Part shown: in pieces, positions 3,605-56,552 of the stretch
How positions within the stretch are numbered: position 1 is the first letter of the stretch
Layout of the letters: the number at the start of each line of letters is the position of its first letter
NCBI GenBank assembly: GCA_963971405.1
Contig: OZ020484.1
Coordinates: 14,074,001-14,138,000 of the forward strand
DNA: 64,000 nucleotides
Source: Psococerastis gibbosa
Lineage: Eukaryota > Arthropoda > Insecta > Psocodea > Psocidae
Direction: 5' to 3'
Notes under the pieces: generated by a model
What the model saw: the letters and a program-made list of their open reading frames with translations, nothing else
Told to the model about the DNA's origin: nothing
Databases searched by the model: none
Made by a program: the position numbers and the translations under genes

Positions 3605-4373
3605 TTGCTTTCCAATTTATACGTAGTATAAGGAAAGCTCGAAATTTTCGATTCCGAGATTTCAACGGATTTACAGGTTTTGAGGTCCCAGGAACCCAAA
3701 AAAGTGTTTTTTACGAAATGTCTGTCTGTCGCTCTGTCTGTCTGTCTGTATGTATGTATGTCTGTCTGTCTGTTTGTCTGTTCATCGATTTCCGGGCAAA
3801 CTACTCTGTGGATTTGTATGAAATTGGACATGTAGGTTCACAAAAATCATACCTCGGGACCATTTTATTTTTGGCTAACTCAATTTGGGGGGGGGGGAGG
3901 GTTATTTTCAAAAAACTCCAAAAAAACGTCTAAAAAAAAATTATTTCTCAAAAACGGCTCCAACGATTTCTTTTAAACTCACATATATTCTAGTCGTTAT
4001 TAATGTTGATAAAACGCGGGGGGTCGCTTACCCCTTGGTAGTTTGCTTCTGGGGGTAAAAAAATAAAAATAACTTAATTTTAATGAAAAATGACTAAAAA
4101 ATAATTTTTCTGCGAAACCTTTCTATTGTTGATTTCTACCTTCAGGCATGTTTTAGGTGTTAAATTGAGTAACGAAACCGGACAGTTTGCTTTCCCAAAA
4201 AACTATTTGGTTTTGTTCAAAAATTTTTTTTTTGAAAAAATTAAAGCAAATTCACACTGAAATGCATTGCGTGCCCTGCCATTATTGCTGTGTGGTAATG
4301 TGTTGGTCTGTCCTATCTAGAATTTACGTCACCTCCAGTGACGTCAGGTGAACAACCCCCCCCCCCCCCCCCC
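3605..4373 (+). repeat. 770-bp dispersed repeat with TCTG microsatellite, full-length copy 1
   Basis: Aligns almost end to end with 12196-12972. Order: CTTTCCAATTTATACGTAGT, a GAGGTCCCAGGAACCC block, a TCTG/TATG microsatellite (about 3718-3783), GGTTCACAAAAATCATACCT, an A/T-rich part, and a C-run at the end. No terminal inverted repeats or long frame were seen, so its class is unknown. Confidence 0.75.
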
Positions 4374-15661: not shown

Positions 15662-16930
15662 CCTATATAGTTAACCCCGTATAGAAACTACTATGTAATG
15701 TAGCTATGAAGAATTACGCTATTTAAAATACTTTTAGAAATAACGAAACATAACCCAGCACTTTTTGTCTTCCGACGTGACGGGCGACGGCAAAAAATGT
15801 TCTCACCGAGATGACCCTCATTCATCTTTCTTGAATGGAACTTCTTTAAGAAACAAGGCTAGTAGGCACCGCGTGCTCGTAGTTGTTTTCAATAGCAGCA
15901 GCACAAATCTACCTTGTTTTGTTATGAAAAATTCCAGTAGCTCAAAAATGTTGACTTTTGAGTGGAAAAAACATATTGAGTATTTTTTTGAGGGTCAAAT
16001 CTGAGTCAATGTTATTGTTGGGAACTTTTCGTTGGAGATGGAGTATTCTGTCGTCATTAGGCTCTGGTTTTGTCTTGTTCTGCCCATTGACGCTCCTTTG
16101 TACGTTGGGCAGTCTAAACACTGTTATTCTTTGAGTTTCGAGTAATATACAGTACCTATGTATCTCCTGAATGTCTTTTTATGGTACCCATTCATTATAC
16201 AGTAGTTAGACTGACAAAAATCTACTAAACAATCGCCGGATTCATTGTAGACGTAGGCTACCAATAGTTATTACCTACATACAATAATAACATTTTAATT
16301 TAATTGATTAATTTAAGTAATTTAATAATACATACATTCATTATTACGAATCGTGTACAATGTGCGTATAACTGGTATATTCTTCTCCTTTTATAGGTCA
16401 CAATTTCAGCGATTGGTTCGCAGCAACTCCCTGCATAACATCCTCCAGCTCTCTCAGTCTCGTCTTCCTCTTTAGCTCCTGCGTCCTCCTTCAGCTGATC
16501 CATGAATTTTCTCGGTAAATAAATGCATATGCTTCCATACTAGGAGCTTTAGCCCGGTAGCATGACTCACTGGCGCCAAAGCTCGAAGACGTCTTGCGGA
16601 CGAGGATTTGAACTAGCTATTACCAGGTCGATTCGATTATAACACAAGTACCCATACCGAAGGTGGGTGCAGGTCTCCGGTCCAGGCGCAGTTCTCCTGA
16701 CGTCACCTTAGTGAATCTTGGCCTAATATGGCACACTCGCCTACCTATTTTCTCTATAACTGGCCGGCCAGTGCAGTGTTGCCAGTTTTCTCAAGTTTAT
16801 TCTATAATTTGATGGATTGATAGGTGCACCTATTATTAGTATGCATGACATTCCATTGAAATGAAATGAAATAATTAAATGGAAGTCGTTTTCTGATAAT
16901 GTCACTATAGAAATTTTCTATGGTCAATTT
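15662..16930. other. No supported feature
   Basis: Nothing beyond short frames. A tRNA-like arrangement was looked for near 16600 and not confirmed. Confidence 0.3.
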
Positions 16931-29528: not shown

Positions 29529-33342
<3,814 letters not shown>

Positions 33343-46748: not shown

Positions 46749-47190
46749 TAAACAAAAAATAACAAAAACGTAGAGGTTTAGAAAAACTTGTTATAACAAC
46801 CCGAATTAGTAAAACCCAAATAATCCCAAAGAAATTAACTTTGTCTGCGAAACCCACTTGTGTTAGTATAAAACCCTGAGCGCTTTCAGCAAGAACTGCC
46901 ATCTACAGAGGGAAACCCACTAGCACAGTTACACCTTATCTGCGATTTGAGACTTGCTCAACTTGAGAAGTTGCAAAATTTGGTAAGGTGTAATTTGATA
47001 AGGTGTAACTGTGCTAGTGGGTTTCCCTCTGTAGATAGCAGTTCTTACCGAAAGCGCTCAGGGTTTTATACTAATACACAAGTGGGTTTCGCAGACAAAG
47101 TTAATTTCTTTGGGATTATTTGGGTTTTACTAATTCGGGTTGTTATAACAAGTTTTTCTAAACCTCTACGTTTTTGTTATTTTTTGTTTA
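46749..47190. mobile_element. Near-perfect palindrome with 192-bp arms in the Egr intron
   Basis: Arms 46749-46940 and 46997-47190 differ by three substitutions and one 2-base indel; the loop is 56 bases. The arms contain CCACTTGTGTTAGTATAAAA and AGAGGGAAACCCACTAGCAC. Transcribed with Egr it would form a long double-stranded RNA. CCACGAAGTCAC follows at 47204-47215. No transposase; likely a young foldback element. Confidence 0.9.
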
Positions 47191-47284
47191 TTAAAATGAA
47201 ATACCACGAAGTCACGAGTAATCTAATTATTTCTGTTCTTCATCATGTCAAGGTACTTTTTGTTAAGGTACTTTTTGTACATTG

Positions 47285-47565
47285 CTGGCGACGCAAATGG
47301 ATTAGTTACATAAGATGCCTTACCAATTGATTCGCCAAGGGGTGCAAGTGACAAAAATACATATTTTAGAAATTTTATTTTAGAGGTAATTGAGGCTAAA
47401 GTTTGAAACTGTAAAATGTACAGCTATGCCTCTATTCCATGAACTCTGACACTGTCATAAAGACAGTTCCTGTTGGTTTCTAGTATATAGAGCAGCAAGA
47501 GTAACAACATGGTGCACTAAACTAAAAAACGCAAAATATGTAATTTGCACCTGCAGAGCAGCACG
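47285..47565. repeat. Relative of the 26625-26965 repeat
   Basis: GCTGGCGACGCAAATGG, AAGGGGTGCAAGTGACA and AAAACGCAAAATATG...TTTGCACCT blocks, partly inverted. Confidence 0.45.
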
Positions 47566-50867: not shown

Positions 50868-52276
50868 AAACCGATTGGTTTGTTTCATGTTGTAATGCAT
50901 GTTACTTCCACTTCAACAAAACCGATGTGGCAATATACTGACGTTTATATAAGATGAAACCAATTTTAATAATGAGCTAGCAAAAATACGAGAGTGCATG
51001 CTTAAAATGCGTATAATTCACGGTCGATTATGTTAAAAAATAATTATTATAAAAAATTGGGTGAAGTTCATTGTAAGAGCTTTGAATTAACGGGGTAGGG
51101 AATTTCGAACTTTCTAATAGATTGCACCTACCGTAATAATTTTTACATCTATAGAAACGAGCACTACCAATGAGCAGCAAGCAGCTAGCTTAGTTACAGT
51201 ACTAATATATTGTATGTTTCCCTAAAGATATTTTCTTATAACCGGCTTACATATAGTTCCTTGCATTGGTTGTTCTTATGTAGTGACATTTTTAACTTCT
51301 GCTGCATATTTAAAGGCATTTTTAAATTACACTTTAATTAGTTTAGGTGCGTGAAAAATAAAGACCGTGGAGAGCGCTTCAGTGAAAAAATGAATCACGA
51401 TCGGATTCATTAGTTGTCCGAAGTTCATTTTTTTGTATAAATATTTATTTATTTACTCAAATTCATTGGAGTTGATGGAGTAAAAATACTGCAGCAGCAA
51501 GTAAATAAATAAGAAATAAATCTTAATAAGAATATTGCCATAAACCTAAGAATTGTATTTTATTATCTCTAAAAATATAGACTAATTTTTCCGATTCCGT
51601 CGGCAGTCTGGCAATAAACTGACGAGTGGACTGGACCACAGTTTTATTCGAAGAACTCGCTCTTCAGGATGGCCGGCCGCACCTTCCTAATTCCTAAATG
51701 CCACCGTCGCCTAGCCTAGGTTCTAGGTGCTACTGTCTATACTAACAATCTTATTTACATCCAATGTCTCTTCTTGCTATAGGACAATAGCCTAACGAGA
51801 CTCACAGAATACTAGTTTAATATTAACCCCATCGTTAATTTCTACAAGGAAATAAAAGACGGATAGGCATGCGCATAGCAGAAATGGGTATAAATTAAAT
51901 TATTTATCTACGTAATGCAACACAATAGGTGGACCTACATGTAAATATAGGTAGTTCAAATTACGGATTAGTAAAAATAAACATGTTGAAAAATATTATA
52001 ACACAGAAACACATAGAATTAATAATTAATTAATATAGATAGTGAACTCTGTTAGTGGTATTTGTGAGATAGCTTCAAGTGTGTCGGCAACGTTTCTGGG
52101 GGAGGGGAATTTTTTAATACAATATTATTGTTTACTTGAGGTTAAGTAGACATATGTGGGTCTGAAACTACCATTGAGAGCAGGCCTAGTGTGCGTTTGC
52201 TTTTGGATATGAGCTGTGAGAAACGATATTTCCAGAGATCGAAAATGGAGAAAGGCAATATTCGTTAATTAGGGGA
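50868..52276. other. 5' part of the Egr intron, no supported feature
   Basis: AT-rich. GC content rises sharply from about 52300, towards exon 1. Confidence 0.35.
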
Positions 52277-52458
52277 ATGAAAGCTCACAACATCGATACA
52301 ACGAACCCGGTGTTTCCTTGCCGTCCATGCTGGGTGCGTGCACGCATCCTATTGCCACGCACACGCAGGAGGGTAGCGACGCCGGACGGCGCACGTGGGG
52401 GTAGGGGGCCAGGGGGTGTGTCAAACATCAGTCACGTGCATAACACTACCAAGCTCAC

Positions 52459-52729
52459 CTGCAATGGGCGGAGGCTCCACCAGGCTGCTAGGTCCGAAGA
52501 AGGAAGGGAGTTCGCTAGCGGTGGTGACAGGGGTGTTGAGGTCTCCCTGCGGCACGGGAAGCTCGGAAGCCGCAGTTGCCGGAGGAGGGCTGCCGCCAGG
52601 GGCTGCGGTCGGCGCCCCCTTGAGGAGACACGTGTCAAAGCTGAGGACGTTGAAGGCTGCTGACTCGGATAGGAGGAATGCAGAATGCGGGCGATGCGGC
52701 GGACAGAACTCCAAACCGTCCATGGTCAT
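52459..52729 (-). CDS. sr/Egr: Egr/Stripe zinc-finger transcription factor, coding exon 1
   Basis: N-terminal coding exon of an early-growth-response transcription factor: 90 codons plus the first base of codon 91 (Gly). The start is the ATG at 52729-52727. It has A at -3 and a GCCGCC stretch upstream; a second ATG two codons on has an equally strong context (ACCATGG), and the protein begins MTMDGLEF. No ATG is seen between here and the inferred cap site. The exon encodes a Pro/Ser/Ala-rich segment with no recognised domain, as expected for Egr activation regions. It ends at GCAG followed by GTGAGC, a strong splice donor, leaving phase 1. The exon is GC-rich and CpG-rich, unlike its AT-rich surroundings. 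Assignment to Egr rests on strand, matching splice phase, absence of a better partner and the promoter upstream. An mRNA would prove the join. Confidence 0.8.
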
Positions 52730-52940
52730 GGTCGGCGGCGATGAGGTACCCCCGCCTTCAACACAAGCACAAGACTCGGAGTCGCGAGGGGGTTGGGGGG
52801 TTAGGATCCAAGTACCGGGGGTCAGGAGGGGAAACCAAAGAACGCACCCTGTGGCCGTCAGGTTGTCGCGGTTATAGTCGCGATCCTACGAAACCGGGCA
52901 CACGCTCACGTTCTATGAGCTTCGCGTACCGGGCTGGACT
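52730..52940 (-). other. Inferred 5' UTR of the Egr gene
   Basis: About 210 bases between the proposed start site (A at 52940 within GGCAGTCC, an initiator-like sequence about 30 bases downstream of a TATA-like box) and the ATG. No ATG in any frame was seen on the minus strand here, so translation would start cleanly at 52729. The cap site is inferred, not observed. Confidence 0.5.
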
Positions 52941-52964
52941 GCCGTCCCTCCACGCACAACATCA

Positions 52965-52972
52965 CTTTTATG
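52965..52972 (-). promoter_or_regulatory. TATA-like box CATAAAAG of the Egr promoter
   Basis: On the minus strand the sequence reads CATAAAAG, one base off TATAAAAG. It lies about 30 bases upstream of an initiator-like A at 52940 and just downstream of a CArG box. Confidence 0.55.
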
Positions 52973-52987
52973 AATGAACCGTCTGTC

Positions 52988-52997
52988 CCATATTTGG
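52988..52997 (-). promoter_or_regulatory. CArG box / serum response element
   Basis: Perfect CC(A/T)6GG match: CCAAATATGG on the minus strand, CCATATTTGG on the plus. The flanking ACTTCC (GGAAGT on the plus strand) is an Ets core sharing the CC of the box, as a site for SRF with a ternary-complex factor. Vertebrate Egr genes are driven by SRF through such sites, so this is the expected control element of an activity-induced gene. It sits at about -50 relative to the proposed start. Confidence 0.65.
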
Positions 52998-53019
52998 AAG
53001 TCGCAATGGAGCTCGCCAG

Positions 53020-53024
53020 CCAAT
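53020..53024 (-). promoter_or_regulatory. Inverted CCAAT box
   Basis: CCAAT on the plus strand, so ATTGG in the direction of transcription, at about -80 from the proposed start. This is the usual spacing for NF-Y sites. Confidence 0.5.
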
Positions 53025-53083
53025 GAGCGCCGGCACCGGTCTACTGGCTCCCTCACTCGCAGAGCGCTATCTCCCTCCTACTG

Positions 53084-53102
53084 TGACGTCACCATGACGT
53101 AA
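53084..53102 (-). promoter_or_regulatory. CRE and adjacent CRE-like site
   Basis: A perfect palindromic CRE, TGACGTCA, is at 53084-53091, followed three bases later by TGACGTAA at 53095-53102. They lie at about -145 to -162. CREB/ATF sites next to an SRE are a known feature of immediate-early genes. The pairing supports a regulated promoter rather than chance. Confidence 0.6.
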
Positions 53103-53570
53103 CTCCTGCATATATCCCCACTGCTTTCAAAAACTTAGAGCTTTTACTCCATCTGTCACTTTCTTTCCACTGGATACCAGGGAAAGCAAAGACAGACTTA
53201 CTACTGTATCTGCCTGTACGAAACGGCCACAGAGTTCATTTTCTGGTTTCACAATCATAGGTACCATTTGTAATAAATTTCATAATTTCGAAACTAGCAA
53301 GACTCGATAGTTTGGGATAACTGAGGGCTAGTAGAGACCGTAAATTTTGTGCCGGACTACCGGTATCAAACAATAATATGAAACTGCCGAATCAAAAAAG
53401 TTAGCCTAACTGCAGTTGTTTTGGAAGGTTGATCGGTGCGAAAAGACATACCATTTGCAATTCTATTGATTTTATAATCTCTGGCTCCCAAAAGTCAGTA
53501 AGGATGCGAGTGTACCCATCTGGGTAGGCTCATTGTTGCTGGATACTTTGAATTTTTGCACTACGCCGAT
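53103..53570. other. Upstream flank of the Egr promoter
   Basis: On the minus strand a GGGGATATATGCAGG stretch at about 53106-53120 is TATA-like but lies upstream of the CREs. No gene or repeat recognised. Confidence 0.35.
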
Positions 53571-53805
53571 TTGAGCCACACGTCATAGTAGCAGATCAAT
53601 CACGGTGAGTTGACTGAGGCACCTATCCAAGTGTTACGTGGTAATATATATAAATATATATATATCTTACAAATGTTATACAGTACATACAGTACGAAAG
53701 CTCGCATCGCTTATAACATTTGTTAGATGACTGTGGCTCGCATAACATTTACACAGTGTGCCTCCTCAGTCAACGTGATTGATTTTTTGTAACATATGGC
53801 TCAAC
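53571..53805. repeat. Foldback element upstream of the Egr promoter
   Basis: TTGAGCCACACGT, GATCAATCACG and GTTGACTGAGGCAC at the left pair with GTGCCTCCTCAGTCAACGTG and CATATGGCTCAA at the right. An inner pair ATCTTACAAATGTTATA / TATAACATTTGTTAGAT surrounds the loop. Confidence 0.7.
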
Positions 53806-53954
53806 TCGTGTACTAAAGTAATTCAAATTTAAGCCGGGTACCCCTTAATAACAACTTCATGAAGTCTAGGCTACATATTATGTCAATAAGTAATGAAAAC
53901 TGCTAGACTGGACGCAAAAGTGAAATATTGGATGGTTTGTAAGAAGACAACTAG

Positions 53955-54178
53955 AGGCATGGGCAGCAGGTTGGGGGGGGGGGGGGGGGTGACGCCCCCC
54001 TTAATAATTTGACGAACACTAGCTAGAATTTGGTTTTCTTTGATGAATTTAAACAACAGTAGATAAAAAATAAGATTTTAATGCTCATATTAAAAAAAAA
54101 TTCAAATAAGCCCGCGATAACCAATTTAATCGAACTTTTGCACCTGTCCCCCCTGGTTCCGATCCTAGCTACGCCTAT
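53955..54178. repeat. Possible G-run element
   Basis: Starts TAGAGGCATGGGCAGCAGG with a long G-run and ends CCTAGCTACGCCTAT. Similar in style to the hAT-like G-run elements, but no duplication was found. Confidence 0.35.
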
Positions 54179-54573
54179 GAATAGACGGATATTTTAATTA
54201 AATCATTACTGAGAGAATATAATGTAAAAATAAAATGTGAATTTTGATACGGAGGGGAGGCTGTTGTTTTTGGCACGAGCCTCTCATTCCATCGCTCTTT
54301 ATTTGTTTTCTTTTAAGAATGACGTATGGCGAACAACATTGCTGCTGCTCTATTTTTGGGGTTGGGTTTGGAGAAATCTTTCAAACAATCAAAACCATTA
54401 TCCACATTATTATGGTTGCAGTTGTCGCCTAATAACAGTGTTTGGTTGCAGTAATAATTCTTATAACGTGAATGCGTTAAAGCTTTTATTGGTTTGACTA
54501 ATTATTTATACTTGGGCTGATGACTTTTAGCTTTAGTACTGGCATTTAAAGAATTTTAGGAGAGATGATAACT

Positions 54574-54637
54574 GAAATTAGAGGATATAGAAAAATCCCA
54601 TCAAGTCCAGGATTCCTATATTATATCCTCTAATTTC
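54574..54637. repeat. Small hairpin
   Basis: GAAATTAGAGGATATA and TATATCCTCTAATTTC are exact complements around about 30 bases, giving a miRNA-sized fold. No evidence of expression. Confidence 0.5.
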
Positions 54638-55067
54638 TATTCTAATAAGGAGGTTACCTCTTACACCAAAGTTAGTTAAAATGTCAGTGTTATCTGTATA
54701 CCATATAATACTGCAAAACGAATAGAAGAGATGATACTGTGTTTATATGACGTCAACAATATTTTAATACGGAAAACGTGAAAATAGCACCGCACGCGTA
54801 CATGTAACCTACTGTAACAAAACACTTTCACGCTTTGTTTGCATGTGGCCGAAATCTCTTCATTACATGAAGCACTGTGAAATTTACTGTGTTTTTTTTT
54901 TTTTTTTTTTTTTTTTAAATTCAGTCAAGTTGCTCTATACTTTTCTTTTTCTTTAAGCCTTAGGGCTTTAACTGAAATGTACATATTATGTGTAAATACA
55001 TAAAAATAATACTGTATACTGAATATTTAACACCCACTACTTTCGATTTTTTTACTTAAGGTTAGGT

Positions 55068-55238
55068 TAGGCCATAGCCAGGATTTTTTTTCGGGGGGGG
55101 GGGGGGGGTAGAAATTTTACTGGATACTACATAGTGGTTTTTATTTTTCCTCTCAAAATCCGATTCTATGTAGTATCAAGGGGGGGGGGGGGTTTGAACC
55201 CTCATGAACGAACACCCCCTATATAGGCTACAGCCTTG
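55068..55238. mobile_element. hAT-like G-run element with 7/8 target duplication
   Basis: GGTTAGGT at 55060-55067 and GGTTAGGC at 55239-55246. Ends TAGGCCATAGCCAGGA and GGCTACAGCCTTG. Two internal G-runs; ACTACATAG and CTATGTAGT form an inner pair. Confidence 0.6.
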
Positions 55239-55465: not shown

Positions 55466-55548
55466 GGGCATACATATATTATATTATATATTATATTATA
55501 TATTATATTATATATTATATTATATATTATATTATATATTATATTATA
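55466..55548. repeat. 12-bp AT minisatellite
   Basis: Units of ATATTATATTAT repeated about 6.5 times. Confidence 0.85.
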
Positions 55549-56552
55549 GGATCTTTCCAACAAGACATGTGTTCGGCTTATATTCTCTTAAAAGATAACC
55601 ATCCAGTCATGAGTGAAATCAAATTATACATCTTGAATAAGACAACAAACGCGCAAACTAGAAGCTACTAATTCGATGGTTTCTCGTCTAAAATTATCCT
55701 ATCCCTTTGACACTGCCGCATAATCCTTGATCCATGTTTTTCTGAGGAGGAAGCAAGGGAGTGAAAAGACAGTGACCTGAGCTGGCAGGGGAAGGACGTG
55801 AACCCAAAGCACACTGCTTAAAGTTGTGACGTTATCGCCCACGTATATTGAACGGCTGGTATCGAAATAGCCAAGTTGGTCTATTTCGGGAGTTGCAAAC
55901 AGCAGGTGCGCCGGCGCATGGCGTCCCTCGCGCGCCAAAATTACTCAGCGGAGTAATGAGCATCATAACTAAGAATAACTTGAAAATCTCACCAAGAGCT
56001 CTTCGTCACGAACAGCATTCGGTCATGAAACAGTTTTTTGTGATAGTTTCAAATCCTCTGTAGAAAAATGAAGTCCTCTCGGAATTTTTTTTTTCGAAAA
56101 TGTAAAAACGCTTTTTAGTTGAAATGTAACTGACAGAAAGGGACTTGTTTTACTCATAGACCATATAATACTCTAGACACGGTATTCCAGATGCACTGCA
56201 TGAGAAAGTTGGGGCTCCAACATGATGTTTTTCTTTTGCCAGTGGATGACGCCACAGCCCAGTTTACCTAGAAACAGCGATGTGTTGCTAGGTAACCTGG
56301 TCACCCGAGTGACTAGTTTTTTTTGTTAAAAAAATAACGGACTAATCGTTAAAAGTTTCTAATTGAACATATAAGTTTTACCAAAGTTAAAAAATGTTCT
56401 CTCACTCCAATTAATTAATTAAGTAAACAAAACTTGAAAATAATAGGTTCGCGTCTCTAAAATCAGCAGTTGGTCTCTCTGCGTGTCTAGAGTATTATAC
56501 AGTACATATATGGTCTAAGGTTTAACTAATAAAAAAATAATTAAAAATACTG
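55549..56552. other. No supported feature
   Basis: Frames of up to 80 codons without known motifs. Near 56150-56180 and 56488-56516 GACCATATAATACTCTAGACA and its inverse occur, so the stretch between may be another foldback. Confidence 0.35.

Follow-up and report, generated by a model that had tools for sequence, protein, structure and literature searches.

A very likely egr-B core promoter upstream of the predicted Egr gene of Psococerastis gibbosa

The window analyzed here, i.e., a 64-kb stretch of contig OZ020484.1 of Psococerastis gibbosa, carries a predicted Egr gene on its minus strand. The coding part of the first exon (52459-52729) starts with an ATG at 52729 and ends at a donor site CAG/GTGAGC. 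The coding part of the second exon (29529-30766) follows the sequence TTTCAG, encodes three Zif268-type zinc fingers and ends with a stop codon at 29529. The two are separated by a predicted single intron of ~21.7 kb (30767-52458) with a GT donor and an AG acceptor, across which the reading frame is kept. In this predicted two-exon splice model, the exons joined in frame would encode a protein of 502 amino acids. At the exon junction, 12 of 15 residues are identical to those of cricket egr-B, VEPPPITGSLEPEEL, as translated from junction-spanning cricket primers (Watanabe et al., 2018; PMC6140108).

In a search of the PDB, the best two rows were multi-finger ZNF568 chains, which were matched in several stretches, and the next rows were EGR1/Zif268 chains, matched in one stretch comprising residues 323-411. 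The peptide of 90 amino acids encoded by the first exon has no match in Pfam with an E-value of 1 or lower. When the zinc fingers were used as a query against the 409-Mb assembly, the match was 100% at this locus and at most 59% for all others among the matches listed, and a single Egr gene is therefore likely; this search gave at least 241 matches, and 150 of 2225 candidates were scored. Among the matches listed, those to C2H2 zinc fingers are dense on contigs C15 (~28.9-30.2 Mb) and C20 (~19.1-20.1 Mb), and these runs look like expanded zinc-finger gene clusters. AU-rich nonamers (TTATTTAWW), a further hallmark of immediate-early genes, are absent from the 2.1 kb past the stop codon, and ATTTA occurs there six times, which is below the window average of ~3.9 per kb on the same strand. 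Thus, mRNA instability signals lend no support here.

Upstream of the first exon, a compact series of motifs is present at 52940-53102, and these motifs are real. Distances are counted below from A52975, the probable start of transcription. The distal CRE TTACGTCA (53095-53102, minus strand) and a perfect palindromic CRE TGACGTCA (53084-53091), both located by direct motif search, begin at approximately -127 and -116, respectively. Together, these adjacent sites read GTTACGTCATGGTGACGTCA, with TGG as the spacer. The other motif searches located a CCAAT box at -49 to -45 (53020-53024), which lies on the plus strand, reads ATTGG on the minus strand and is, thus, in inverted orientation with respect to the gene, as well as a perfect CArG box or SRE, CCATATTTGG, at -22 to -13 (52988-52997), the edge of which is overlapped by the Ets core GGAAG (52996-53000, plus strand). 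The resulting sequence CCATATTTGGAAG at 52988-53000 is the sole CArG box running straight into GGAAG on either strand of the whole window. All these elements, i.e., the CRE-like site, the perfect CRE, the inverted CCAAT box and the perfect CArG box with its Ets core, had been listed in the initial annotation, and each is found where it had been placed. Further toward the gene, TCATTC (52972-52977, minus strand) corresponds to the published initiator YCATTC, with a probable +1 at A52975 as judged from this consensus and from the match to a cricket primer. It is followed by CATAAAAG (52965-52972, minus strand), which is probably among the first transcribed bases in view of its overlap with the cricket primer, and by AGTCC (52936-52940, minus strand) at +36 to +40, which matches the motif AGTYY that was published with the label DPE.

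The start of the cricket egr-B transcript was fixed by 5′ RACE by Watanabe, Ugajin and Aonuma (2018; PMC6140108). The elements of the egr-B core promoter are two CREs, a CCAAT box, an SRE, the initiator YCATTC and the AGTYY element, and this core promoter was reported to be common to most of the hemimetabolous insects examined, Tribolium and Daphnia (PMC6140108). Two extra motifs were also described: a GAGA motif at approximately -80, restricted to polyneopterans, and a GC-rich motif that most hemimetabolous insects have ~30 bp past the start (PMC6140108). Among the literature matches listed, this was the sole paper describing this promoter.

The primers printed in Table 1 of that paper stood in for a promoter alignment in the comparison with the window. 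The orthopteran egr-B core-promoter primer covering the SRE, GTCCCATATTTGGAAGTCG, is identical in all its 19 bases to the block at 52985-53003 (plus strand), and this 19-mer is present in one copy in the whole 409-Mb genome. The primer covering the CRE pair with a 3-bp spacer, GTTACGTCATTTTGACGTCA, matches the CRE pair of the window in 18 of its 20 bases (53084-53103). A third primer, on the initiator side, also matches in 18 of 20 bases (52960-52979), with 15 of 20 as the next best score in the window. The 5′ primer for cricket egr-B cDNA matches in 23 of 26 bases (52953-52978); its first 16 bases are identical, and its first base aligns with 52978. Three of these four primers, i.e., those for the SRE, the CRE pair and the cDNA, were rescored window-wide, and each score was reached at 1 of ~128,000 positions, while the initiator-side primer was judged by its next-best score. 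All four matches fall within 151 bp, and their layout agrees with the use of the primers in the published work, with forward primers on the CRE pair and reverse primers on the SRE and the initiator (PMC6140108). A core primer with a 2-bp spacer between the CREs gave no ungapped match in the window (10 of 19 bases).

Two adjacent CREs, a CCAAT box, an SRE, a YCATTC initiator and an AGTYY element are, thus, all found here, with egr-B exon 1 downstream, as published for the egr-B core promoter (PMC6140108). The AGTCC element is a motif of five bases with 486 hits in the window and is weak when taken alone. The two extra, minor motifs are weak or absent. Within the core region, the polyneopteran GAGA consensus is matched best by a weak GA-rich stretch in the interval between the CREs and the CCAAT box (53064-53079, minus strand; approximately -104). 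It matches in 12 of 16 bases, a score that is equalled or exceeded at 118 of 127,970 window positions, and it is not convincing as a GAGA motif. No good match to the GC-rich motif was found downstream of +1, and the best one in the core region (10 of 14 bases) lies upstream of it. The latter motif was stated for most hemimetabolous insects and is, hence, no absolute requirement (PMC6140108). According to Table 2 of the same paper, a 194-bp block in the cricket has its first base 150 bases upstream of +1; here, 128 bases separate the beginning of the CRE pair from A52975, but as the ends of that block are unprinted, these figures provide no test of the spacing.

The match at the exon junction and the primer matches together identify the first exon as that of egr-B. 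As in the published primer layout, the CRE pair is located upstream of the SRE and the initiator, and the egr-B exon junction is conserved. The region is, thus, very likely the core promoter of the arthropod Egr/stripe egr-B transcript and homologous to the promoter of the cricket, most of the other hemimetabolous insects studied, Tribolium and Daphnia, and as judged from its sequence it is well supported as a further instance of this published promoter. The proposal in the initial annotation of an invertebrate Egr gene with a compact promoter containing CREs and an SRE is borne out. As a check, conservation of the CArG box and the CREs in relatives had been suggested, and both are kept in other arthropods as far as the published primer sequences show. 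That these elements are conserved as a set had been reported in 2018 (PMC6140108).

The vertebrate EGR1 and c-fos immediate-early promoters are alike in having a CArG box with an Ets core and CREs near the start. The EGR1 promoter contains several CArG boxes, whereas here, one CArG box is found, directly upstream of the initiator, and no TATA box. For c-fos, the presence of SRF and CREB sites was also mentioned in the cricket study (PMC6140108). Within the insects, Drosophila stripe-B and variant III of honeybee AmEgr are the equivalent alternative-promoter isoforms of the same gene (PMC6140108). However, Table 2 of that paper gives no conserved core-promoter position for Drosophila and Apis, in contrast to the conserved form present in this window.

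The isoform egr-B is the one that is induced by neuronal activity in the cricket and, as AmEgr variant III, in the honeybee (PMC6140108). In the cricket, its pre-mRNA was upregulated within 15 minutes, and the induction was insensitive to cycloheximide (PMC6140108). A cricket fragment of 2.2 kb, comprising upstream sequence and the 5′ UTR, drove activity-dependent expression of EYFP; 3 of 37 reporter lines responded, and the induction of the reporter mRNA was ~1.8-fold vs. ~6.5-fold for the gene itself (PMC6140108). By homology, transcription in P. gibbosa would begin at the initiator TTCATTC (~52975) and would be TATA-less. CREB/ATF would bind both CREs, a CCAAT factor the CCAAT box, and SRF with an Ets-type partner the CArG/Ets block, and these bound factors might relay calcium, cAMP and ERK signals to the promoter. 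Egr RNA may, then, be expected to increase shortly after neurons become active, independently of new protein synthesis, again by homology. The CREs and the SRE of the window are putative response sites. When single signalling pathways were stimulated, cricket egr-B was not induced (PMC6140108), and simple sufficiency of CREB or SRF is, therefore, not established.

The position of the transcription start requires reconsideration. In the initial annotation, CATAAAAG was labelled as a TATA-like box, and an initiator-like start was placed at ~52940. Neither TATAAA nor TATAWAAR is present in 52900-53150. The primer used for the full-length cricket egr-B ORF begins with TTCATTCATAAAAG and contains CATAAAAG (PMC6140108, Table 1). 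Since this primer starts at TTCATTC, CATAAAAG should be transcribed in the cricket. In the window, the same octamer immediately follows the initiator TTCATTC and is covered by the match to the cricket cDNA primer, which argues against a TATA box, and the supposed initiator CAGTCC contains the published AGTYY element. With YCATTC matched at 52972-52977 and the cricket primer starting with the corresponding TTCATTC, +1 is probably located at ~A52975, approximately 35 bases upstream of the start proposed earlier, and the core-promoter labels given to these two sequences were probably wrong. The spacings reported at the time (-160, -147, -82, -53 and -28) are correct as positions of motif centres relative to 52940, but they do not hold as distances from the probable start: the CArG box then lies at -22 to -13 instead of -53, and the CREs begin at approximately -127 and -116 instead of -160 and -147. 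The canonical position of a DPE is ~+28, and AGTCC, which starts at +36, is off this position.

The closeness of the SRE and the initiator might be a sign that SRF positions the start. In an extended version of this idea, the CArG/Ets block, the initiator and the CATAAAAGTG leader would constitute one composite start element. SRF, bound at -22 to -13 near the usual place of TBP, would directly position polymerase II on the TATA-less initiator, and the arrangement would have been kept across arthropods because the SRE and the start are inseparable. We regard this version as doubtful.

Transcription could alternatively start at ~52940 in a TATA-dependent manner with the same enhancer inputs, with CATAAAAG as the TATA box and CAGTCC as the initiator. 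The former differs by one mismatch from TATAAAAG, and its first base is located at -32 from A52940, which is a normal distance for a TATA box; CAGTC resembles arthropod initiators. Besides, an 18-codon upstream ORF, MLCVEGRQSSPVREAHRT (52962-52906, minus strand), is present in the leader if transcription starts at 52975 and is avoided with a start at 52940. However, counted over both strands, the window has 146 sequences that match TATAAAAG equally well, and a TATA motif with at most one mismatch followed by CAGTY at 28-34 bases is found three times, this site included. Thus, the arrangement is not distinctive. Such a start is also difficult to reconcile with the full-length cricket primer, which starts at TTCATTC and includes CATAAAAG, and with the published naming of YCATTC as the initiator and AGTYY as the DPE; in the main text of that paper, "TATA" appears once, in relation to a motif of the Fra protein (PMC6140108). 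A TATA-dependent start as the explanation of this promoter is, therefore, improbable, although 52940 could be a secondary or minor start. The upstream ORF starts at ~+14 of the probable Egr leader, and the corresponding part of the cricket primer is without an ATG.

It is very improbable that the CRE pair is a shared, bidirectional element that also drives a transcript on the plus strand via the TATA-like sequence CATATATCC at ~53110. The palindromic nature of TGACGTCA and the CATATAT stretch that follows the CRE pair on the plus strand would fit such a role, but neither of the plus-strand open frames of at least 150 amino acids in the window (46872-47330 and 52377-52877) is located downstream of this stretch.

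The cluster of motifs was also evaluated by simulation. To count as a full cluster, a CRE had to have another CRE-like site at most 30 bp away and a CArG box no more than 165 bp away, with a CCAAT box in between. The real window has one such cluster, and none was present in any of the 800 sequences of 64 kb simulated with order-2 Markov models, 400 from the whole window and 400 from 52001-54000. As the set of motifs was picked after the site had been seen, and as the window is also rich in TGACGTCA (7 sites vs. 0.59 expected from order-2 composition), the simulation by itself does not constitute the main evidence; the independent test by the published orthopteran primer matches is stronger. 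Chance co-occurrence of short motifs, with the Egr promoter located elsewhere, would be favored by the abundance of the single motifs on both strands of the window (CCAAT, 135; YCATTC, 71; AGTYY, 486), the enrichment of TGACGTCA and a second CRE-CArG pair at 16698-16731, but it was rejected as extremely improbable in view of the simulations and, particularly, of its contradiction by the primer identities of 19/19, 18/20, 18/20 and 23/26 within 151 bp, including the genome-unique SRE 19-mer. In the second pair, which is located on the plus strand ~13 kb past the 3′ end of the Egr coding region, a perfect CRE TGACGTCA lies 16 bp from the perfect CArG box CCTAATATGG. The copies of TGACGTCA at 4339 and 18500 fall within the interspersed repeat family D20.

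An egr-B core promoter at 52940-53102 adds one more genome to those with a very old activity-regulated promoter, and its short sequence could serve in neuronal-activity reporters in a new arthropod. The likely start has moved, so that the SRE is adjacent to the initiator and no longer at -53; this alters the cut point for a reporter and the assignment of bases to promoter or leader.

The upstream region, 52941-55200, contains no AP-1 consensus (TGASTCA), MEF2 consensus or second perfect CArG box. Two imperfect CArG-like sites, two C/EBP-like sites and one further TGACGTCA, at 54748, are present. The Egr autoregulatory site, GCGKGGGCG, was not found in the window, and a tRNA scan of it found none. 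With neither an AP-1 site nor a second perfect CArG box in 52941-55200, the published distal modules are without support here (PMC6140108). Inverted repeats, ATCAATCACGGTGA and TCAACGTGATTGAT, are present at 53595-53783, with an inner pair at 53664-53680 and 53712-53728, which suggests that a small MITE-like element was inserted ~600 bp before the Egr start. Upstream of the promoter, at 53974-53990, 55090-55192 and 55472-55550, there are also long poly-G tracts and a tandem array of the TATATTA type.
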